Shown here: positions 1-46,460 of the stretch, piece after piece
Layout: every line of letters begins with the position of its first letter
Numbering within the stretch: position 1 is the first letter of the stretch
Source: a virus
IMG/VR virus record: IMGVR_UViG_3300033388_000677
Coordinates: 1-46,460 of that record
Direction: 5' to 3' (one strand)
Length of the DNA stretch: 46,460 nt
The notes under the pieces: model-generated
What the model was told of the DNA's origin: nothing
Database searches by the model: none
Seen by the model: the letters and a program-made list of their open reading frames with translations, nothing else
Program-made: the position numbers and the translations under genes

Positions 1-15
1 GTTTTGATTCGGCAG
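1..15. repeat. Terminal direct repeat (15 bp), other copy at 46446-46460
   Basis: The first 15 bases (GTTTTGATTCGGCAG) are repeated exactly as the last 15 bases. This fits a circular or circularly permuted genome whose assembly overlaps itself. It is too short to be called a packaging repeat with confidence, and an assembler k-mer overlap would look the same. Confidence 0.8.
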
Positions 16-168
16 CGCCCACCTCGCGCAATTTTTGATGTTTGACCTATGCTTGACCTTGAGAGTGGTTGAGAGCTACACTACTCCCATAGTCAAGAAA
101 GTAGATACCAGCGGTAAGGGTTAAATAGGTATCCGCTATCGGCGTTATAGAGCGTTACAGGGTTGTTT
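16..168. other. Non-coding leader before the packaging module
   Basis: About 150 bases without a convincing gene. With 46358-46460 it forms one intergenic region if the molecule is circular. It holds a possible promoter (53-82) and a 6-bp inverted pair, CTTGAC at 52-57 and GTCAAG at 93-98, that could be an operator. Lying just upstream of the terminase genes, it is a reasonable place for a packaging site, but none is visible. Confidence 0.4.
53..82 (+). promoter_or_regulatory. Possible sigma70-type promoter for the late operon
   Basis: TTGACC at 53-58 (5 of 6 to the -35 consensus), an 18-base spacer, then TACACT at 77-82 (4 of 6 to the -10). It points at the first gene of the packaging and head operon. 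Weak -10, so this is tentative. Confidence 0.3.
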
Positions 169-565
169 ATGAAAAAAAAAAATATGTATAGATTTTGATG
201 GTGTTATATATCCAAACTTTAAATATTTTGGTACGAGTATTTTACGCGGCGATCCGGTTCCCGGTACTGTTGATGCACTTAATAAGTTATCGCAATGTTT
301 TAACGTTGTAATACATTCGTCGAGGTGTGATACGAACGAAGGGTTTGAAGCAATAAAATCATATTTAAAAAAATATGATATACCGTTCGAAGTGGTTAAA
401 GATAAACCTACGGCGCATATTTACATTGACGACCGCGCAGTATGTTTTAATGGTGTTTGGGACGATACGATCAAAAATATAGAATCATTTAAACAATGGC
501 AATTAGACGATAAGTTAAGAGCTAAAATATTCCGTAAACGGAATAGGCGTTCGCGTCGTGACTAA
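169..565 (+). CDS. HAD-superfamily phosphatase-like protein, frameshifted at an A11 run
   Basis: All four HAD motifs are visible: DxD in CIDFDGVIYP, the Ser motif in VIHSSR, a Lys in VKDKP, and the acidic pair in YIDDRA. The family hydrolyses phosphoesters through an aspartyl-phosphate; the substrate here is unknown. The good frame has no ATG, GTG or TTG near its beginning. The only sensible start is ATG 169 after an AGGG Shine-Dalgarno, and it is followed at once by eleven A (172-182) that put it out of frame by one base. Ten A would give a product of about 131 aa. The run may slip during transcription or translation, be a real mutation, or be a sequencing error. The end overlaps the terminase small subunit start by 8 bases, which suggests an expressed gene. 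Confidence 0.7.
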
Positions 566-1421
566 TCGATTAGTATCTAAAGCAGAGTTTGCACGTATCG
601 CGGGTGTTACTAATGGCGCTATAACTAAATTGTTAAAAACACAACTTAAAAACACAATGGTCGGTAAACGCATCGACGTTAACCACGCGAAAGCGGTTAA
701 ATATATAAAAGACAAAGCCGACGCTATGACCACCGAACCCGCGACCGGTATTGATCCGTTATACGAGTACGCCGTAGAGTATTGTCAATCGAAGAAAAAG
801 ATATCTATATCAGCATTGCAACGTAAATTACGTGTTGGGTACAACAGGGCGAAGCGTATCGCCGATATGATGGTACTCGCCGGTGTTGATATTGACGGTA
901 CAAAATCACCAGCCACACCGAAGAAAAAATCCGCCCATGTGGTCAAGGGTCACAACGCCGCTAAGAATAAAAAAGAGGCTGAATCGTTATCAGAACTAAA
1001 AGAAGAAATCGAAAGCGGTAGTATGGTTCACGATATACCCGAAGACCTCGACGACTTCGTCGATATGACCCTCCGGGAAATATTGCAACGGTTCGGAACT
1101 AAAACCGCGTTTCTGGATTGGCTAAAGGCTACAAAATCAATCGAGGACATAAACGAAAAGCGTTTAAAAAATGCACAAACACGCGGCGAACTCGTTAACC
1201 GGGATTTAGTTAAACTCGGTGTTATTGAACCGTTCGACACCGCGTTTAATAAATTGCTAACGGATGGTGCGAAGACAATCGCGCGCCGGGTTTGTGCAAT
1301 GAATGGCGCGGGTCGATCCGTTGCCGATTGCGAAACATTTGTCGCCGATCAAATTAGTAGTTTTATCCGCCCGGCTAAAGCGAAAATTAACAGAGCGTTG
1401 AAAAAACGCATAAAGGTATAA
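558..1421 (+). CDS. Terminase small subunit with FtsK-gamma-like DNA-binding domain
   Basis: 287 aa from GTG 558. Three parts can be seen. Residues about 8-55 form a helix-turn-helix like lambda Nu1 (AEFARIAGVTNGAITKLL, then VGKRIDVNHAKAVKYI). Residues about 68-115 (DPLYEYAVEY, ISISALQRKLRVGYNRAKR) match the FtsK gamma winged helix very closely. A charged helical C-terminal half of about 170 aa resembles the rest of phage terminase small subunits. The role is recognition of phage DNA and recruitment of the large subunit, which lies three genes downstream. The assignment as small subunit rests on domain type plus position. The gamma-type domain, which in FtsK reads the KOPS sequence, is unusual here. 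Confidence 0.75.
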   Translation: MTNRLVSKAEFARIAGVTNGAITKLLKTQLKNTMVGKRIDVNHAKAVKYIKDKADAMTTEPATGIDPLYEYAVEYCQSKKKISISALQRKLRVGYNRAKRIADMMVLAGVDIDGTKSPATPKKKSAHVVKGHNAAKNKKEAESLSELKEEIESGSMVHDIPEDLDDFVDMTLREILQRFGTKTAFLDWLKATKSIEDINEKRLKNAQTRGELVNRDLVKLGVIEPFDTAFNKLLTDGAKTIARRVCAMNGAGRSVADCETFVADQISSFIRPAKAKINRALKKRIKV

Positions 1422-1918: not shown

Positions 1919-3907
1919 ATGCCCGAAATAGATAACATAGGCGCGGATTGGTTAGCGGACGAAGTCGACGAACTAACCGATTTAATTACCCATGTTTTAC
2001 CCTCGACGTTTAACGAAGAAAATAGATATCTCCCGGAATCCGTTACCAGTATCCCCGGTTACCTTCGTTACGATGTTAACCCGTTCATGCGCGAGATTGT
2101 GGATTGTGCCGACGTAAATTCCCCGGTGCGCGAAGTCAATGTAAAAAAAGGCGTACAAATAACTTATACAACGTTACTCGAATCCGTCATGTTATATTTT
2201 ATGGCGCATATAAAAACCGTACCGTTAATGTTTTTAACCGCCGATAAAGAACTCGCAATCGCCCGCGTTGAAAATAGTATTATCCCTATGTTAAATCAAT
2301 CCGGGTTCGCCGATATTATTAGATCAAGCGACGAAGGTAACTCGCGTAAAACTGGTAAAACAAAAGACCATTTACAATGGGAAGGCGGCGGATATATGGT
2401 TCCGTTCGGTGCGAAGACCGCCGACAAAATGCGTATGTTTTCTATCATGGTTATGTTAAAAGATGAACTCGACGCGTGGCAAGATACCGTAGGTAAAGAC
2501 GGCGACCCTGACGCACTAAGCGACGACCGTTGTTCGGCGTATTGGGAACGACGAAAAATATTTCGCGGGTCCACTCCATTAATTTTAAATAATTCAAAAA
2601 TACAATCGGCATACTTACGCGGCGACCAACGTCATTACATGGTTAATTGTAAATCGTGTGGGTTTCCACAAGCGTTACGGTGGGAAACTAAAGATAAAAA
2701 AACCGGAATACTTGGCGGCTTTAAATGGGATATGGACGACGGCGTATTAAATTTAGAATCGGTTAGATATCTTTGTCAAAATTGCGGCGAACCACATTAC
2801 GAACACGATAAAGAATTATTATTCAGTCCCGACGGTGGTGCAAAATGGGAACCAACTGCGCGACCCGCCGAACCGAATATCCGTTCGTATCATTTACCGG
2901 CAATGTATTCGCCGATAGGTATGCAACCGTGGTACAAATGTGTAAGCGCATATTTAAAAGGTTTCGACCCGGTTGCTAAAAAAGTAAAAGACATTGGCAA
3001 GTATCAAGTTTTTTATAATAATATTTTAGCGGAACCGTTTGAAGTTAAAGGAACTAAAGTTCGATTCGAACAAGTATCCGCACACCGTCGAACGGTTTAT
3101 CGTTTAGGTGAAATACCGAACACTTACGCGGCAAAATATTCCGGGTCCGTTATTTTATTTTTAACATGTCAAGTCGATGTACATAAAAATAATTTAGCGG
3201 TTTCCGTTATGGGTTGGACCCGCGACATGCGTTGTTATGTTATCGATTATTGGCGGTTTGAAGTTACCGGCGACGAGGACGATTGTAGCGAATTAACATC
3301 GCCTGTATGGGGTCGACTTCAAAAGTTAATCGAAGAAACAATCTACACCGCCGACGACGGAAAAAAATATAAAATTATATTAACGTTAGTCGATGCCGGT
3401 TACGCTAACGATACGGTTACAACTTTTTGTAGCGTTTACGCGTCGGGTGTTTATCCGATATTGGGTCGCGACCGCCCCGGTAAAAATCAAACGATAAAAG
3501 AGTTTGCAAAATTCGAAACGCAATCCGGGACCACCGGTTACAAAATTGTCGTCGATCATTACAAGGATCGTTTGTCGTCGGTGTTGCGTCGTGATTGGGT
3601 AGAAGGCGCGGGCGAGCAACCAACGTACCATTTTAACGCCCCGGTCGATATTACTGATAAACAATTAAAAGAATTGACAGTCGAAAGTCGTCGCGAGAAA
3701 AAGGACCCACAAACCGGCGTAACGTCGTATTTCTGGTATCGTCCGGGTAACGCTCGCAATGAGTTGTGGGATTTATTGGTATACGGACACGCCGCCGTAG
3801 AAATACTAGCGTACACGATATGTATAGAGCATTTCGAACTATCCACGATAGAGTGGTCGAAGTTTTGGGACTACGTCGAAGCCGATAAACTTTACTATTC
3901 CGATTAA
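1919..3907 (+). CDS. Terminase large subunit, GpA family
   Basis: 662 aa, the usual length for lambda GpA-type packaging ATPase/nucleases. The N-terminal ATPase part has the family's degenerate Walker A region (VKKGVQITYTT), a LFLTADKE-type strand and the FRGSTPL segment. A zinc-binding insert follows (CKSCGFP ... CQNCGEP). The C-terminal nuclease part includes the acidic strands FLTCQVDVHKNN and ILTLVDAGYAND. The enzyme pumps DNA into the prohead at the portal and cuts it. The portal gene follows one small gene later. Confidence 0.93.
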   Translation: MPEIDNIGADWLADEVDELTDLITHVLPSTFNEENRYLPESVTSIPGYLRYDVNPFMREIVDCADVNSPVREVNVKKGVQITYTTLLESVMLYFMAHIKTVPLMFLTADKELAIARVENSIIPMLNQSGFADIIRSSDEGNSRKTGKTKDHLQWEGGGYMVPFGAKTADKMRMFSIMVMLKDELDAWQDTVGKDGDPDALSDDRCSAYWERRKIFRGSTPLILNNSKIQSAYLRGDQRHYMVNCKSCGFPQALRWETKDKKTGILGGFKWDMDDGVLNLESVRYLCQNCGEPHYEHDKELLFSPDGGAKWEPTARPAEPNIRSYHLPAMYSPIGMQPWYKCVSAYLKGFDPVAKKVKDIGKYQVFYNNILAEPFEVKGTKVRFEQVSAHRRTVYRLGEIPNTYAAKYSGSVILFLTCQVDVHKNNLAVSVMGWTRDMRCYVIDYWRFEVTGDEDDCSELTSPVWGRLQKLIEETIYTADDGKKYKIILTLVDAGYANDTVTTFCSVYASGVYPILGRDRPGKNQTIKEFAKFETQSGTTGYKIVVDHYKDRLSSVLRRDWVEGAGEQPTYHFNAPVDITDKQLKELTVESRREKKDPQTGVTSYFWYRPGNARNELWDLLVYGHAAVEILAYTICIEHFELSTIEWSKFWDYVEADKLYYSD

Positions 3908-3950: not shown

Positions 3951-4211
3951 ATGGCGATTAACGACACTTTTTTAGAAGCACGTATAACCGCAACGGAAGC
4001 CGCTATCGTGGCGTATGAAGCGGCGCAACTTGCGTTTGCTACGGATGGTAACATGCAGTCGTATAAACTCGATACAGGGCAAAGTATACAAACCGTAACC
4101 CGTGCCGATTTAGATATGATTACGAAAACCGTGCAAAGTTTATATAATCAATTATCCACATTATGCGCGCGTAAAAACGGCGCGGCATCTATAGGGCGTC
4201 CCGCATGGTAA
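3951..4211 (+). CDS. gpW-like / DUF6148-type head-tail connector protein
   Basis: 86 aa, mostly alpha-helical. It has repeated Ala-rich helices (ARITATEAAIVAYEAAQLA) and the pattern SYKLDTGQSIQTVTRADL typical of small proteins between terminase and portal. In lambda the gene at this position (W) makes a head-completion protein. Its end overlaps the portal start by 7 bases. Assignment rests on position and general pattern. Confidence 0.7.
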   Translation: MAINDTFLEARITATEAAIVAYEAAQLAFATDGNMQSYKLDTGQSIQTVTRADLDMITKTVQSLYNQLSTLCARKNGAASIGRPAW

Positions 4212-5899
4212 ACGAAAATTTACGGTCTAAAATTTCGCAAGCAATCGGCGGTAGTTCTATCCCGGACGCGTTACCATCACTCATTACCGACGGGAATTTA
4301 GACGCGGTAGACCTTCGTAATTTATCAGCACACGCCGGGCAGTTTACACAATCAGGTTTTCAAAATTCACTATACGACGGCGGTAAATTTTTCGGCGGTT
4401 TCGGTTTAACACAAATTCAAACGGTTGATTATTGGACGTTACGCGCACGGTCGTCGCAATTATTCAACGAAAATTTATATGCTCGCGGCTTAATTCGTCG
4501 CCTTATTACAAACGAAATTAACACCGGGTTAACGCCCGAATCTATGCCCGACGAATCGATTATCGGCGTCGCCGAAGATAGTTTAACTGATTGGACCGAA
4601 ACGGTTGAAAATCGTTTTAACGTGTGGCATAAAAATCCAAAATTATGCGATTGGAAGCGTGAATCTACATTCGGTGATTTACAACGCACCATACGACGCG
4701 AAGCGTTAGTAAGCGGCGATATATTAATCGTAATACGTCGATCGCCTACAACTAAATTACCGATGATACAATTAATAAACGGTAGTAAAGTACAAACACC
4801 GTTAGCGAATAAAGCTAAAATAAGACAAGGTAGCGTAATTAAACACGGTGTCGAGTTTGATCGTAACGGTCGTGTTGCGGCTCATTGGATTAAACAAGAC
4901 GATGGCGACTTTAAGCGTATGCCCGCGTTTGGCGAAAAATCAGGGCGTCGGTTATCGTGGTTAGTTTACGGAACGGATAAACGACTCGACGAAGTTCGCG
5001 GTCAACCGTTGTTAGCGTTAATTATGCAATCGTTGAAAGAGTTAGACCGTTATCGCGATAGCGCACAACGTAAAGCGGTTATTAATTCGTTAATCGCTAT
5101 GTCGGTCGAAAAGTCCACCGATAAAATGGGAACGTTACCGGGTCAAGGTGGCGCGGTTCGTAACGATTCCGCAACAATCACCGACGGCGACGGTACAAGT
5201 CGCACATTAAACGTCGCGCAATATTTACCCGGTGTAACCGTCGACGAAATGCAAGTCGGCGAAACGTTGAAAATGCACGGAGGACAAGGTACCGACGTAA
5301 GCTTCCCTCCATTTGAAGAAGCTATCGTACAAGCTATGGCATGGGCGAACGAAGTACCCCCGGAAATATTACGCCTCGCGTTTTCAAATAATTACAGTGC
5401 GTCACAAGCCGCGATAAATGAATTTAAAATATACCTTAATCGTATATGGTCCGATTTTGGCGAAACAGTTTGTACGCCGATTTATATCGAATGGCTACTA
5501 AGCGAAACGCTACTCGGTAAGATAAAAGCGTCGGGTTTATTGCAATCATGGCGCACACCTTCGGAGTACGACATATTCGGCGCATGGACTAGCGTTGATT
5601 GGTACGGATCGATTAAACCTTCGACCGATATGTTAAAACAAGGTAAAGGCGCGCAATTGTGGATTAAATTAGGTTTAACCACACACGCACGCGAAGCACG
5701 TAACGCGACCGGTACTAAATTTACGAAAAATGTAAAACGACTTAAAACCGAAAACAAATTACTAGCCGAAGCCGCGCGACCGTTGTTAGAATTACAAGCA
5801 GAATTCGGAACGGCGGAAACTGATGCCGCAATCGAAGCATTAAACAATGCCACCGATAATATGGTCGCGATGGTCGAAGATAAAGTCGATGCCATTTAA
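4205..5899 (+). CDS. Portal protein, lambda GpB family
   Basis: 564 aa. Recognisable segments are WTLRARSSQLFNENLYARGL and RLITNEINTGLTPES near the N-terminus, LVYGTDKRLDEVRGQPLL in the middle, and PPEILRLAFSNNYSASQAA towards the C-terminal third, all typical of lambda-type portals. It forms the dodecameric ring for DNA entry and tail joining at one capsid vertex. It overlaps both neighbours, so translation is probably coupled. Confidence 0.93.
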   Translation: MVNENLRSKISQAIGGSSIPDALPSLITDGNLDAVDLRNLSAHAGQFTQSGFQNSLYDGGKFFGGFGLTQIQTVDYWTLRARSSQLFNENLYARGLIRRLITNEINTGLTPESMPDESIIGVAEDSLTDWTETVENRFNVWHKNPKLCDWKRESTFGDLQRTIRREALVSGDILIVIRRSPTTKLPMIQLINGSKVQTPLANKAKIRQGSVIKHGVEFDRNGRVAAHWIKQDDGDFKRMPAFGEKSGRRLSWLVYGTDKRLDEVRGQPLLALIMQSLKELDRYRDSAQRKAVINSLIAMSVEKSTDKMGTLPGQGGAVRNDSATITDGDGTSRTLNVAQYLPGVTVDEMQVGETLKMHGGQGTDVSFPPFEEAIVQAMAWANEVPPEILRLAFSNNYSASQAAINEFKIYLNRIWSDFGETVCTPIYIEWLLSETLLGKIKASGLLQSWRTPSEYDIFGAWTSVDWYGSIKPSTDMLKQGKGAQLWIKLGLTTHAREARNATGTKFTKNVKRLKTENKLLAEAARPLLELQAEFGTAETDAAIEALNNATDNMVAMVEDKVDAI

Positions 5900-17932: not shown

Positions 17933-19573
17933 ATGAGCATTTCCAAACATCTAAAAGAACACGCGATTTTAGGTATTTCAGCATTGCCCGCAAATACCGT
18001 AACCGTTGGCGTTGGTGGTATGTTTCCTACAATACAAGCCGCTGTCAATTTTGTAGAAACGCAAATTAATTTTATAGATTCAGGAGTAGCCTCTACTTAC
18101 GAAGAACTCGTACCCGAATCTGGATTCTGGACTGGATTAGCCGTGTCTGATTGGGCTAATGGTTCAAACATAGTAACTCTCGCAGCAACTGCTACTCATG
18201 CCAACAATGAAATATCTGGGAATACCCGACTTTGGTTACAAGCAGGATCAGAAAATCAATTTTACAGAATAATTGCACACCGCGAAGAAGAATCCTTTTT
18301 AACGGACTGCAAACGCATTGGTACATCTATAGCAGGTGCAACTGACCAAATCACTTTGTGGCGAGAAAACAAATGGGTAATCGAATTACTTGACGCACGT
18401 TATGAAGAGAGTGTATTAATATCAACAAATGTGTGCATCCGCTTTGTAGGCACTGCGAATACTGAATGGACTGGGTATCAGGCCTCTGCCTTGATGAAAG
18501 GTTCTGGATTCACCTACGGCGTTATAGAATTTAAAGACGTAGCTTGTCTAGCAGAGGGTAATCCGGGCAGTATCTACTCTTCAGCTTTCATGATAGGTAA
18601 CGTTGGCTCTACTGGCGCATGGGATGAAGAGAACACTATAGAATTACGTTTTTTAGAAGGTTGTAATTTAAACACTTGGCAATCAGATTTCATCAGTCCA
18701 GCAGTCCAAATTGGCAGCGTGTTTATGCATCATCTGACTCTTGCCAGTAATCCAATTATCTCAGCTGCCCACTTACTATACTTTATAGCCCAAGGAACGG
18801 TGCAGGTAAGCCATATTACATGGAATCTTATAGGCGTAGGGGTAGGGATAATTGAAGGAGACAGCTACTTGTTTGACGCAACTCGGGCTAGAAAATTAGT
18901 TATAGGCCATGTACATGTAAATGTACAATCAGGTTATGATGCGAATGGTACTTTAATAATAGTTCAAGGGGGGAAATTCTGCGAAGAAATTCATGTAGAT
19001 AATATTACTATAAGTTCTGATGATGCTTTTGCCGGATTAGGCTCAGCAGCACGTATCGGTATAGTAAGCATGTTCACAGCAGTCTCTGGGACGGGGGTTG
19101 CAGCAAGTAAGGTGTATATTGGAAACTGCTCTCTTAAATTTCCAAATGCACCACAAGGCGTTATTAATTTATATCGTGGCGATTCCGATACAGCAACAGA
19201 AGTTTACATAAGTGATTCGTCTGGTGGTGCTGTCGTACCAGACGCTGGTGATACTATCCACTGCAAGGTACTCGACTGGGTGCAAGCACTAGATTACGCA
19301 GCCGCTATTACTCCAAATCCTAATCTTGGTAACACTATAGACGTGGGTATACTTACCGCAGCTATTACAGTTAATGCGCCAGCCAACCCAATAATAGGTC
19401 AAAAAATGCGCGTATTATTCGAGCAAGGCGGCGTGGGTAATTTCGGTATAACATGGAATGCAATATTTAAGGCACAAGTTTTAGCTGCGGGCGCTACAGG
19501 TACTAAAGCCGCTTACGATTTTGAATATGACGGTGTTGATTGGTTACAAACTAATACTGTTCAATGGTTATAG
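17933..19573 (+). CDS. Tailspike / receptor-binding protein, probable beta-helix
   Basis: 546 aa, preceded by AAGGGGTG. The N-terminus has VGVGGMFPTIQAAVNFV, a classic lead-in to a right-handed beta-helix of the pectate-lyase type. The middle is rich in short strands (VSHITWNLIGVGVG, KLVIGHVHVNV). The last 90 residues (GQKMRVLFEQGG, FGITWNAIFKAQ, YDFEYDGVDWLQ) form a sandwich domain common at fibre and spike ends. It sits unusually between the hub and the central spike genes. From about 18000 to 19300 its codon use (GGA, GCA, TCT) differs from the neighbours, a sign of acquisition. Enzymatic activity is not shown. Confidence 0.72.
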   Translation: MSISKHLKEHAILGISALPANTVTVGVGGMFPTIQAAVNFVETQINFIDSGVASTYEELVPESGFWTGLAVSDWANGSNIVTLAATATHANNEISGNTRLWLQAGSENQFYRIIAHREEESFLTDCKRIGTSIAGATDQITLWRENKWVIELLDARYEESVLISTNVCIRFVGTANTEWTGYQASALMKGSGFTYGVIEFKDVACLAEGNPGSIYSSAFMIGNVGSTGAWDEENTIELRFLEGCNLNTWQSDFISPAVQIGSVFMHHLTLASNPIISAAHLLYFIAQGTVQVSHITWNLIGVGVGIIEGDSYLFDATRARKLVIGHVHVNVQSGYDANGTLIIVQGGKFCEEIHVDNITISSDDAFAGLGSAARIGIVSMFTAVSGTGVAASKVYIGNCSLKFPNAPQGVINLYRGDSDTATEVYISDSSGGAVVPDAGDTIHCKVLDWVQALDYAAAITPNPNLGNTIDVGILTAAITVNAPANPIIGQKMRVLFEQGGVGNFGITWNAIFKAQVLAAGATGTKAAYDFEYDGVDWLQTNTVQWL

Positions 19574-32148: not shown

Positions 32149-32337
32149 ATGCAAACAGCTACAAGTAACTATATTAACAATCATAAAAATAGCGCCGAAT
32201 TACTCGACATATATTTAATTAATGGTTTAAGAATGACCGGTCGCGTAGAAGAATTTGACGACGAAGGTATTATAATCGATACGGGTCAATTGATAATGCG
32301 TAGTTCTATCATGACTATTCAGGTACATAAAAAATAA
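32149..32337 (+). CDS. Hfq-like (Sm-fold) RNA-binding protein
   Basis: 62 aa with AAAGGG before the ATG. The Sm1-like block IYLINGLRMTGRVEEFDDEG and the Sm2-like strand LIMRSSIMTIQV line up with bacterial Hfq (IYLVNGIKLQGQ ... YKHAISTVVP). The YKH residues of the proximal RNA site are replaced by MRSS, and the first helix is shorter in features. If it forms a hexamer it may bind other RNAs or alter host Hfq. It overlaps the helicase start (TAATG). Confidence 0.78.
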   Translation: MQTATSNYINNHKNSAELLDIYLINGLRMTGRVEEFDDEGIIIDTGQLIMRSSIMTIQVHKK

Positions 32338-35087
32338 TGCAATTAAGACCGTATCAATCAAAATTAAAAAGTGATGTTTACGAGGCATGGGACAGCGGCG
32401 TTAAAAATGTATTAGCCGTTAGCCCTACCGGTTCTGGCAAAACCGTTTTATTTTCCGATGTGATTAAAGAACATAACGGCGCGAGTTGTGCCATCGCACA
32501 TCGGCAAGAGCTTGTAACGCAAATATCGTTAGCACTTGCGCGCGACGGTGTACGACATAGAATTATCGGGCCTGATAAAGTAATCCGTCTAGCTAATCGT
32601 ATCCACATGGATGAACTCGGTAAATCATATTTTAACGCTAATGCACATGTTGCCGTTGCAGGTGTCGATACGTTGGTACGGCGGCGTAACGAATTATCGC
32701 ACTGGTTAAGTCGTGTTACGAAATGGGTGCAAGATGAATGTTTCCCTGCGGGTACGCTTGTCGATAATATACCGATAGAAAATATTAAAATCGGTGATTA
32801 TGTAACGGCTTTCGATGAAGAAAATAACACTTTTGAAAAACGTAAAGTAACTCGTTTATTTAAAAATCCAATGCCTAAAAACATGGTATCTTTACAAATA
32901 GGACACCATGTTTTAGAATGTACAAAAGGGCATCCGATTTATACTAAAAGGGGTTGGGTAGATGCGGGAAACATTACCGAAAAAGATTACGTGTACATGG
33001 TGCGACAAGCCGATAACGAAAACGAGCGAAGCACAACGGTACGGTTGGAGAAAGAAAGGTCGTATATTTTGTCAAAGAAAATGCGGCATGTCACATCGGG
33101 ACGCAAATCGCAAACCGAGAAAGAAACGAGAGTTACCGAAAGTGAAATGTACGCAATGCGAAAAAGTGGCAGATTTAACAGGTCGTCGATACAACTATTA
33201 CAAACAAACGGGTCGAGCCTATTGTGGGAAAGAATGTTCGGACAACTACCGCTCGAAAGTATCATCGGAAACCATGACCAAAACAAACAAGAAATATGCT
33301 TCGGAACGAATGAAGAAAAACAACCCAATGCGGAACGAGGAAACACGCGCGAAGGTTTCAAATACATTAAAACGGATCGGACATGCTCCAAAAATACGAG
33401 GCGGGAACGGACAACCACCAACGAAAGCGGAATTACAGTTAAACAGTTTATTCGGGGCGCTAGGGTTCGAACTTCAAACCATTGTACGAACGGGTTTGAC
33501 AAATCAAGGTTACCCAAATCATTACAAAATAGATTGCGGAAACAAACATTTAAAAATAGCAATCGAAGCGGACGGAAATTCGCACGGGTTAATAAGTCGA
33601 CGCGAACAAGATGCGAAGAAAGACAATTTTTTAACTGGCAACGGGTGGGTAGTGTTTCGATTTTCAAACACTGTGATATTGAACAATCCGGACGAAGTTT
33701 GCAAAATGGTTATGTCTACAATATTGAAGTTGAAGGATTGCACACCTATATAGCTAATGGAATCGTTGTCCATAATTGTCACCACGTATTAATAAAAAAT
33801 AAATGGGGTAAGGCGGTCGACATGTTCCCGAATGCTATCGGGTTAGGTGTAACAGCAACGCCAACACGCGCCGACGGTGCCGGGTTGGGATCATGGTGCG
33901 GTGGTGTATTCGATGAAATGATCGAAGGTCCGCAAATGCGAACGTTAATCGAAATGGGATACCTTACCGATTATCGTGTATTCGCACCACCGTCCGACAT
34001 TGATTTAACAAACGTAAACATAACGGCGAGCGGTGATTATTCACCCGCACCGCTAAAAAAAGCTGTGCAAAAATCGCACGTTATAGGCGATGTTGTAAAA
34101 CATTATTTACGAATCGCACCGGGTAAACTCGGTATTACTTTCGCAACCGACGTCGAAACCGCAACCGATATCGCACGCGAATTTAATCGCGCCGGTGTAC
34201 CTGCGGAAGTTGTACACGCTGGTACATTAGATACCGATAGAGTTGATATAATAAAACGATTTAAAAACCGTGAATTATTACAACTCGTTAACGTCGATTT
34301 ATTCGGCGAGGGTTTTGATTTACCCGCAATCGAAGTCGTTAGCATGGCGCGACCTACACAAAGTTATAGTTTATTTGTTCAACAATTCGGGCGCGCACTT
34401 CGTTTAATGATATCGAAAATATTATCCGGTGCATGGGATACATATACCGACGCGCAACGCCGCGCATTTATTGCGGAAAGCTCTAAACCACACGCAATAA
34501 TAATCGACCATGTCGGAAACGTACACCGTCATAACTTACCTGATAAACCGCAAGTGTGGACGCTAGACGGTGGTAAACGTAACAAGAAATTAAACACCGA
34601 CGAAATACCGACTAAAACTTGTGTTAACCCGGAATGTTTATCGGTATACGAAGCGATTAAAAATAAATGTCCGTATTGCGGAACGAAACCGGTACCCGCC
34701 GGGCGCGCCTCGATTGAATTTGTCGACGGTGATTTATTAGAACTTGACCCGGAAACACTCGCAGAAATGCGCGGGGAAATTGCCGAAGTCGATAAAGATA
34801 AAGAACTCGCGCGAGTTGATGCAAAAAATAAATATATGCCGAAGGTCGGCGAATACGCGCACGTTAATCGACATGTCGAACGTCAAGAAATGCAAACGGC
34901 GTTACGTGAATCAATTAAATGGTGGGGTGCGTACCAACGACAATTAGACCGCGACGATTCCGAAAGTTATCGACGTTTTTATTTTAGATTTGGTATCGAT
35001 ATATTAACCGCACAATCATTAAATAAAAAAGACGCGTTAGTATTAGCAGAAAAAATAAATATACATTTAGGAGAGTTAGCGATATGA
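32337..35087 (+). CDS. SF2 DNA helicase (DECH box), interrupted by an intein
   Basis: 916 aa as translated, about 570 aa after splicing. Extein motifs: RPYQ near residue 5, Walker A SPTGSGKT (29-36), motif II DE|CHH split by the intein after Glu134, motif III GVTATPTR, and motif VI QQFGRALRL. A zinc ribbon (CVNPEC ... CPYCG) and a C-terminal helical region follow. The layout resembles XPB/RadD-like COG1061 helicases of phages. It cannot be active before splicing, because the ATPase site is divided. It overlaps the Hfq-like gene upstream and a 34-aa gene downstream. Confidence 0.93.
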   Translation: MQLRPYQSKLKSDVYEAWDSGVKNVLAVSPTGSGKTVLFSDVIKEHNGASCAIAHRQELVTQISLALARDGVRHRIIGPDKVIRLANRIHMDELGKSYFNANAHVAVAGVDTLVRRRNELSHWLSRVTKWVQDECFPAGTLVDNIPIENIKIGDYVTAFDEENNTFEKRKVTRLFKNPMPKNMVSLQIGHHVLECTKGHPIYTKRGWVDAGNITEKDYVYMVRQADNENERSTTVRLEKERSYILSKKMRHVTSGRKSQTEKETRVTESEMYAMRKSGRFNRSSIQLLQTNGSSLLWERMFGQLPLESIIGNHDQNKQEICFGTNEEKQPNAERGNTREGFKYIKTDRTCSKNTRRERTTTNESGITVKQFIRGARVRTSNHCTNGFDKSRLPKSLQNRLRKQTFKNSNRSGRKFARVNKSTRTRCEERQFFNWQRVGSVSIFKHCDIEQSGRSLQNGYVYNIEVEGLHTYIANGIVVHNCHHVLIKNKWGKAVDMFPNAIGLGVTATPTRADGAGLGSWCGGVFDEMIEGPQMRTLIEMGYLTDYRVFAPPSDIDLTNVNITASGDYSPAPLKKAVQKSHVIGDVVKHYLRIAPGKLGITFATDVETATDIAREFNRAGVPAEVVHAGTLDTDRVDIIKRFKNRELLQLVNVDLFGEGFDLPAIEVVSMARPTQSYSLFVQQFGRALRLMISKILSGAWDTYTDAQRRAFIAESSKPHAIIIDHVGNVHRHNLPDKPQVWTLDGGKRNKKLNTDEIPTKTCVNPECLSVYEAIKNKCPYCGTKPVPAGRASIEFVDGDLLELDPETLAEMRGEIAEVDKDKELARVDAKNKYMPKVGEYAHVNRHVERQEMQTALRESIKWWGAYQRQLDRDDSESYRRFYFRFGIDILTAQSLNKKDALVLAEKINIHLGELAI
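32739..33776 (+). mobile_element. Intein (Hint domain) in helicase motif II
   Basis: 346 aa, Cys135 to Asn480 of the helicase. Block A is CFPAGTLVDN followed by IKIGDYV. Block B is CTKGHPIYTKRGW with the TxxH histidine. Block F is VYNIEVEGLHTYIANG. Block G is VVHN followed by Cys+1. All residues for class 1 splicing are present (Cys1, penultimate His, Asn, Cys+1). There is no LAGLIDADG domain in this frame. The roughly 235 residues between blocks B and F are an Arg/Ser/Thr/Asn-rich stretch of low plausibility as a fold, and are the shadow of a nuclease gene in another frame. Confidence 0.93.
32962..33753 (+). CDS. EDxHD (Vsr-like) homing endonuclease encoded out of frame inside the intein
   Basis: 263 aa, with AGGGG about 8 bases before ATG 32962. 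Two zinc-finger-like units come first (CTWC ... CQRKC; CTQC ... CGKEC). A NUMOD-like DNA-binding stretch follows (NNPMRNEETRAKVSNTLKRI, then GGNGQPPTKAE). The nuclease core has Glu in TKAEL, Asp in HYKIDCG, IEADGNSH with its His, and Asp in REQDAKKD, which fits the EDxHD pattern. The product would cut intein-less helicase genes and so spread the intein. It starts within intein block B and stops inside block F, so both ends are dual-coding. Composition as a protein is far better here than in the intein frame. Confidence 0.9.
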   Translation: MRETLPKKITCTWCDKPITKTSEAQRYGWRKKGRIFCQRKCGMSHRDANRKPRKKRELPKVKCTQCEKVADLTGRRYNYYKQTGRAYCGKECSDNYRSKVSSETMTKTNKKYASERMKKNNPMRNEETRAKVSNTLKRIGHAPKIRGGNGQPPTKAELQLNSLFGALGFELQTIVRTGLTNQGYPNHYKIDCGNKHLKIAIEADGNSHGLISRREQDAKKDNFLTGNGWVVFRFSNTVILNNPDEVCKMVMSTILKLKDCTPI

Positions 35088-45640: not shown

Positions 45641-46357
45641 ATGTTTAAAATCGATATCAAAGACGTAGAAGAATACGAAAATCATTTAAAAGCGTTCGCA
45701 CACAAAGCGTTTCCGTTTGCCAGTAAAAACACGTTGAATAGCGCGGCGTTTAAAGCGCGCGAATTGTGGCAACGAGATATAAACGTAAAAATGATTACGC
45801 GGAATAAATTTACAGAACGTTCGATATTAGTCGATCAATCAAGGACGCTAACGGTATCACGACAATCGGCGACAGTGGGTTCTACAGCGCCGTACATGGA
45901 CGAACAAGAGTTCGGCGGTACTAAGGTCAAGACAGGGAGTGAGGGTGTCCCTATAGCGACGTCGTTTAGTGCGGGTCAGGGTGAGCAAACGCCGCGTACT
46001 AAGGTCGTACGTAAGCCTAATCGATTAGGTAGCATACAATTGCGCAAGGGTGGTCGTAAGGGTAAGAACAAGAAACAGAATAACGGTTTTAAGATATGGG
46101 ATGCGATTGCCAATGGTAAGCGATTTGTATTTCTTGATCTAGGCAGGAAGAAAGGCATATTCAAGGTGATAGGTGGGTCACGTCGCAACGTACATGCGGC
46201 TAGGCTAATGATGGTGGCTGATATGACAGAGCAATCGATCAACATACCGCGCAACCCAACGTTAAAGCCCGTGATTGATCGTACTCAAATACTCATGCCT
46301 GATATACATACAAAGTCTCTACGATTCCAGCTCAAGCGGCTAGGATTATTCAAGTAG
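45641..46357 (+). CDS. Orphan structural-type protein (minor tail gpZ / gp10-like)
   Basis: 238 aa from ATG 45641, with GAGAGG before it; the longer frame from 45581 lacks a ribosome site and enters the upstream element. The N-terminal part (FASKNTLNSAAFKARELWQR, MITRNKFTERSILVD, STAPYMDEQEFGG) resembles lambda gpZ/HK97 gp10-type tail-joining proteins. A very basic middle follows (RLGSIQLRKGGRKGKNKK). Codon use (AAG, GTA/CTA, AGG) differs from other late genes. It is separated from the late operon by intergenic DNA but would lie just upstream of it on a circular map. Role tentative. Confidence 0.68.
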   Translation: MFKIDIKDVEEYENHLKAFAHKAFPFASKNTLNSAAFKARELWQRDINVKMITRNKFTERSILVDQSRTLTVSRQSATVGSTAPYMDEQEFGGTKVKTGSEGVPIATSFSAGQGEQTPRTKVVRKPNRLGSIQLRKGGRKGKNKKQNNGFKIWDAIANGKRFVFLDLGRKKGIFKVIGGSRRNVHAARLMMVADMTEQSINIPRNPTLKPVIDRTQILMPDIHTKSLRFQLKRLGLFK

Positions 46358-46460
46358 CCGCTACGATTAGCGCCGCTACGATAAGGTGCGCTAAGTCTTT
46401 GATTTATAAAGAAAAAGGTACTGTAGAGGCTGAAACGAACTTGCTGTTTTGATTCGGCAG
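46358..46460. other. Terminal non-coding region with CCGCTACGAT direct repeats
   Basis: CCGCTACGAT occurs at 46358-46367 and 46373-46382, a 15-bp period, right after the last gene. The rest holds no gene and joins positions 1-168 if the molecule is circular. Together these about 270 bases precede the terminase genes and are the natural place to look for a packaging site. Confidence 0.5.

Follow-up and report, generated by a model that had tools for sequence, protein, structure and literature searches.

The small terminase subunit (TerS) predicted from gene 558-1421 of the virus record IMGVR_UViG_3300033388_000677 contains a genuine FtsK gamma core, which is devoid of its wing and located between a Nu1-like winged helix-turn-helix (HTH) and a helical C-terminal part. 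The window, i.e. the whole stretch of 46,460 nucleotides that was analyzed, carries a conserved cos at its ends, and HTH-type boxes lie close to its left end. In the model that we favor, to which we assign a probability of about one half, this TerS would read its packaging site in a composite manner, the HTH recognizing its own boxes and gamma an adjoining G-rich box. Detailed knowledge of how terminases choose their own DNA is available for few phages; if the model is true, the exchange of a DNA-reading module, together with the matching change in DNA, would provide a natural experiment on the evolution of packaging specificity, where a chromosome-segregation reader has been reused without its motor. 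Phage gamma domains that occur as orphans, called unexplained in the work on phage Sam46 (PMC8190038), would then also gain a role.

A small terminase with an FtsK gamma core

The plus-strand open reading frame at 558-1421 (terS) starts with GTG and encodes a protein of 287 amino acids. Residues 1-57 (558-728, plus strand) form the Nu1-like winged HTH, as residues 3-60 match the terminase small subunit family PHROG 57 (E 9e-6) and the AlphaFold model places helices at 8-15, 19-26 and 44-57 and a strand at 38-40. The C-terminal helical part, residues 132-287 (951-1418, plus strand), predicted to be responsible for oligomerization and TerL binding, is shared with the TerS of gamma-lacking phages, as indicated by homology, alignment and modeling. 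Homologues of its larger portion (approximately residues 152-282) are encoded directly upstream of terL in cultured gamma-lacking Acinetobacter, Aeromonas, Pseudoalteromonas and Vibrio phages, and one gamma-lacking homologue is annotated as terminase small subunit. The full architecture is found at 50% identity in the cultured Shewanella phage SppYZU01, which infects S. baltica and has GWER in the recognition helix; there the gene is located immediately upstream of that for TerL. Because C-terminal homologues are found beside lambda-type TerL in many phages, the product of 558-1421 is, as judged by homology, a TerS. The whole protein is also covered, with identical domain order, by PHROG 13700 (291 bits), described as "FtsK/SpoIIIE-like protein" and filed under moron/host takeover, whereas gene context and homologues indicate a terminase small subunit, a label by which the present one could be corrected.

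In the window, terS precedes a lambda gpA-type large terminase gene, terL (1919-3907, plus strand), with ATPase and nuclease domains (PF05876, 5.5e-43; PF20454, 2.9e-40), and a portal gene at 4205-5899 detected in a Pfam search. Two small open reading frames without Pfam match (1425-1913) intervene between terS and terL, and none is found there in most relatives. The position of terS upstream of a gpA-type terL, the N-terminal winged HTH and the presumed TerL-binding function of the C-terminal part are all shared with lambda gpNu1.

The gamma core corresponds to residues 66-110 (753-887, plus strand; helices 69-79, 84-91 and 95-107). It matches the Pfam profile FtsK_gamma (PF09397) with 56.5 bits (cut-off 30.6; E 2.3e-15), phmmer retrieves the Pseudomonas aeruginosa and Escherichia coli FtsK gamma structures (E 1e-9), and the AlphaFold model of TerS superimposes on KOPS-bound gamma (2ve9) with an rmsd of 0.6 Å over 44 columns at 52% identity. 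The preliminary description, made from the sequence alone, had recognized both this domain and the Nu1-like HTH that precedes it in a terminase small subunit, and both assignments are borne out. The Pfam match, which is the only gamma match of the genome, nevertheless spans only positions 4-48 of the 63 profile positions. The beta wing that follows helix 3 is absent, as profile positions 49-63 are unmatched and the corresponding linker, residues 111-131 (888-950, plus strand), is modeled with low confidence and without strands; in the family alignment, relatives have a Pro-rich linker alone at this position. No FtsK/HerA motor is attached.

Residues 88-100, QRKLRVGYNRAKR (819-857, plus strand), align to Q1288-R1300 of E. 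coli FtsK and constitute the counterpart of the KOPS/XerD contact surface. The XerD contacts of E. coli gamma (Q1288, R1289, R1292, G1294 and N1296) are a subset of the KOPS contacts (PMC5052618), and all of them are present in TerS as Q88, R89, R92, G94 and N96. The counterpart of R1297 is found in 47/47 and that of G1294 in 43/47 gamma-bearing phages, whilst the recognition helix is highly variable among relatives (GYN, GDK, GAP, GSA or PFN). The preliminary description had made DNA reading by gamma depend upon the residues of the wing; the wing is lost, whereas the contact residues of helices 2 and 3 are retained. As the wing is missing, the DNA affinity of TerS gamma is not assured.

Approximately 86 distinct TerS relatives were gathered, of which 52 carry gamma. 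According to the tree, gamma is repeatedly gained or lost in this family, with at least 10 changes required, four of them on well-supported branches. Note also that in Pseudomonas phage records (e.g., MK511043) genes whose products are labeled RdgC-like recombination proteins cover a gamma-like segment; among phages, the domain appears to move as a module.

A terminase small subunit containing an FtsK gamma domain was already published in 2021 for Bacillus phages Sam46 and Sam112, together with the two hypotheses of KOPS/SRS-like loading sites and of host DNA packaging (PMC8190038); both readings of the preliminary description had thus been proposed before. In the headful (pac) phage system described there, a gamma of 60 amino acids, including the wing, is N-terminal and fused to Terminase_2, whereas here wingless gamma is inserted between a Nu1-like HTH and a different C-terminal domain in a cos-type phage with gpA-like TerL. 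What is new in comparison is therefore the position of gamma behind a Nu1-like HTH in cos-/gpA-type phages, the missing wing, the repeated gain or loss and a possible link of gamma to a G-rich box in cosB (see below).

Cohesive ends, HTH boxes and the terS promoter region

The window starts and finishes with GTTTTGATTCGGCAG, the second copy of this 15-bp repeat being found at 46446-46460 (plus strand) by end comparison. Such a terminal repeat is present in 4/4 contigs reaching both ends (this one and three others), and it would fit a filled-in 15-nt 5′ overhang; the repeat of lambda has 12 bp. The conserved cos, GTTTTGATTC...CTCGCRCA (1-30, plus strand), includes this repeat as bases 1-15 and is conserved at contig starts. 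A conserved pattern derived from the ends was found in 33 stretches in IMG/VR, mostly at the contig end, and about 50 related contigs possess the same cos, again mostly at the contig end and about 87 bp upstream of terS. The phage is thus, judging from its contig ends, of the cos type with cohesive ends near terS, and the overhang would be of the 5′ type. To the left of cos, AAAAAGGTACTG (46412-46423, plus strand) occupies a cosQ-like position and is present in 6/6 relatives having an internal cos. Further to the left, 46310-46400 contains repeated GCCGCTACGAT-like units, and similar TAGCGGC repeats are found left of cos in relatives L002, L013, L038 and L257.

Two directly repeated boxes, TTTGACC (box 1, 41-47) and CTTGACC (box 2, 52-58), are located 11 bp apart on the plus strand. 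Bases 53-58 of box 2 double as a -35-like hexamer, which is followed after a spacer of 18 by the -10-like hexamer TACACT (77-82, plus strand). With cos as the anchor, a pair of TTnACC-like boxes, whose ends fall near 47 and 58, is found in gamma-bearing and gamma-lacking phages alike, and box 1 resembles box 2 of its own phage more than those of others (z 6.2 for phages with gamma, z 4.2 for those without). Moreover, box and HTH sequences co-vary when C-terminal divergence is controlled for (partial Mantel r 0.28, p 0.0002). In view of this repetition within each phage and of the co-variation, the TerS HTH is most likely the predicted reader of the TTnACC boxes. R3 of lambda occupies bp 48-65, counted from the left end (PMC9026076), and the boxes described here and the lambda cosB R sites have in common that their distance from the left cohesive end is about 40-65 bp. 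Differently from the lambda order R3-I1-R2-R1, two direct boxes and a mirrored arm are present, and the protein has an additional gamma core.

This inverted arm, ACTCCCATAGTCAAG, is found at 83-97 (plus strand), where GTCAAG (92-97) mirrors CTTGAC of box 2. In the gamma-bearing group, inverted arms match far better within a phage than between phages (scores of 7.46 and 5.69, respectively; z 8.0), as opposed to the gamma-lacking phages (z 1.2). In gamma-bearing phages the arms are mirrored around the promoter, and the phage-wise correspondence extends to the G-rich part (z 3.0). In the window, the ATG found there has changed to ATA, and the start of the gene is now at 558; the persistence of GTCAAG in spite of this hints that the mirrored sequence matters as DNA.

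Some further observations concern the region between the promoter-like hexamers and terS. The segment 89-109, ATAGTCAAGAAAGTAGAT, resembles a remnant of the first terS codons (ATG GTA AAG AAA TTA in relatives), a situation that insertion of the upstream gene behind these codons would produce. A reading frame in this region (168-565) is interrupted at 11 consecutive A that follow the ATG at 168 and resumes in another frame up to 565, reflecting either slippage or an assembly error; its product (..IDFDGVIYP..) is HAD-phosphatase-like by eye and has no Pfam match. In L010, L014, L016, L023 and other relatives, the terS ATG follows the -10-like hexamer by about 7 nt (bases 75-90), and terS mRNA may be leaderless in these phages.

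A G-rich box and the possible roles of gamma

The candidate gamma site is the purine/G-rich box GAGAGTGG (61-68, plus strand), which sits in the promoter spacer. In gamma-bearing phages, top-strand positions 61-67 are purine/G-rich, with a mean purine-G window score of 2.2 with gamma versus -2.3 without (p 1.3e-5). The effect survives GC matching, and the other strand shows none. The G-box threshold is passed by 39/47 gamma-bearing phages versus 3/18 without gamma, the latter including three distant outgroup phages (15 when these are excluded), whereas an AAC box, i.e. a third box, is found at the same position in 10/15 gamma-lacking but only 5/47 gamma-bearing phages. Among gamma-bearing phages, the G-box accompanies an aromatic residue at the position of Y1295 in 29/31 cases versus 10/16 otherwise (p 0.013), a link that independent pairs on the tree do not support.

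We would like to point out that the G-box pattern was first spotted by eye in the same data in which it was later tested, and that the relatives are not independent, the association being weak after phylogenetic control. Nested sister contrasts chosen from the tree agree on its direction in 5/5 cases, and the four usable independent pairs point the same way in 3.5/4 (p 0.125). Between the sequences of G-box and gamma, no significant co-variation was seen (partial Mantel r 0.05, p 0.2). A hold-out of nine new members, set down before the scan and too small in size, did not confirm the link (scores -3, 6, -3 and 1 for gamma-bearing, and -1, -3, -2 and 1 for gamma-lacking members). This exploratory analysis suggests that gamma may read one G-rich box in cosB, and not words across the genome.

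Under the favored model, the winged HTH of TerS, in a cos-type phage with lambda-gpA-like TerL, would read the TTnACC boxes, whose distance from the left cohesive end is 41-58 bp, at the position corresponding to R3 in lambda cosB, while the wingless gamma core would act as a second DNA-reading helix on the adjoining purine/G-rich box in the same orientation. One TerS protomer would thus read a composite half-site [TTnACC]-[GAG/GGG]; TerS bound there would anchor TerL at cos and determine which DNA end is packaged, and the mirrored arm, as it lies over the promoter of terS, would allow TerS to repress its own transcription. A broader proposal, which we put forward tentatively and hold a little less probable than not, is that a captured, wing-trimmed gamma forms an exchangeable cos-specificity module, lineages without gamma swapping the G-rich word for a third HTH box, so that the module in the protein and its site in the DNA would be exchanged jointly. 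Gamma of FtsK/SpoIIIE, acting on KOPS/SRS (2ve9; PMC5052618; PMC5357621), has in common with that of TerS the three-helix core, the contact residues and the G-rich purine element on one strand, whereas TerS comes without motor domain, wing or genome-wide skewed motif.

The most serious competing explanation, which we regard as rather unlikely, is that the HTH is the sole specific reader, gamma being a leftover or a general module for DNA or protein contacts (e.g., one that grips non-specifically or spaces the oligomer) and the G-box a feature of the promoter or of DNA bending. It would account for the absence of the wing across the family, the wide variation of the recognition helix and the negative Mantel test for gamma and G-box, as well as for the loss or gain of gamma at least 4 to 10 times, which makes it dispensable. 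The invariance of the R1297 counterpart, the near-invariance of that of G1294 and the strand specificity of the G-box association argue instead for specific reading by gamma.

It is quite improbable that gamma acts on the host by activating or titrating XerD, by competing with FtsK at KOPS or by packaging host DNA. The XerD-contact peptide of E. coli, RQFRIGYNR (PMC5052618), does correspond to RKLRVGYNR in this TerS, but the QR-GN signature for XerD contact, although present here, is kept in only 9/47 gamma-bearing relatives, and the gene occupies the TerS position. The best dif match in the window reaches 20/28 as compared with 18 on shuffled sequences, so that no clear dif is found; this and the poor conservation of the contact signature speak against activation of Xer.

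Even less credence is given to a separate phage repressor having the boxes and mirrored arms as its operator: they flank promoter-like hexamers before terS, but box sequence co-varies with that of the TerS HTH and box position matches that of lambda R3.

The least probable explanation is that gamma, in the manner of FtsK, reads many skewed octamers throughout the genome and thereby gives the packaging motor a direction, as proposed for Sam46 (PMC8190038) and compatible with the contact residues retained in this phage: TerS is a packaging-site factor and not a motor, GGGNAGGG occurs once in 46 kb (position 18840), SRS is absent from the window, and KOPS of the gamma-bearing genomes lie along/against terS in a ratio of 30/17 by our own tally versus 31/9 for the mirror-image pattern used as control. 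Genome-wide KOPS polarity was rejected, as enrichment and orientation in pattern counts over 24 records were no greater than in this control; skewed octamers along the genome, for which the preliminary description had suggested a scan, did not emerge from these counts. Of its suggestion that short polar motifs are used, what holds is that most relatives with gamma have a G-rich element next to the packaging site, and not KOPS-like orientation of the whole genome.

Two minor features of the window may be added. The Lactococcus lactis-type motif GAAGAAG occurs six times on the plus strand and never on the minus strand, a bias probably due to codon use. The gene at 32337-35087 encodes a DNA helicase in which an intein-like insert is recognized at residues 147-480 (PF14890, E 8e-11).
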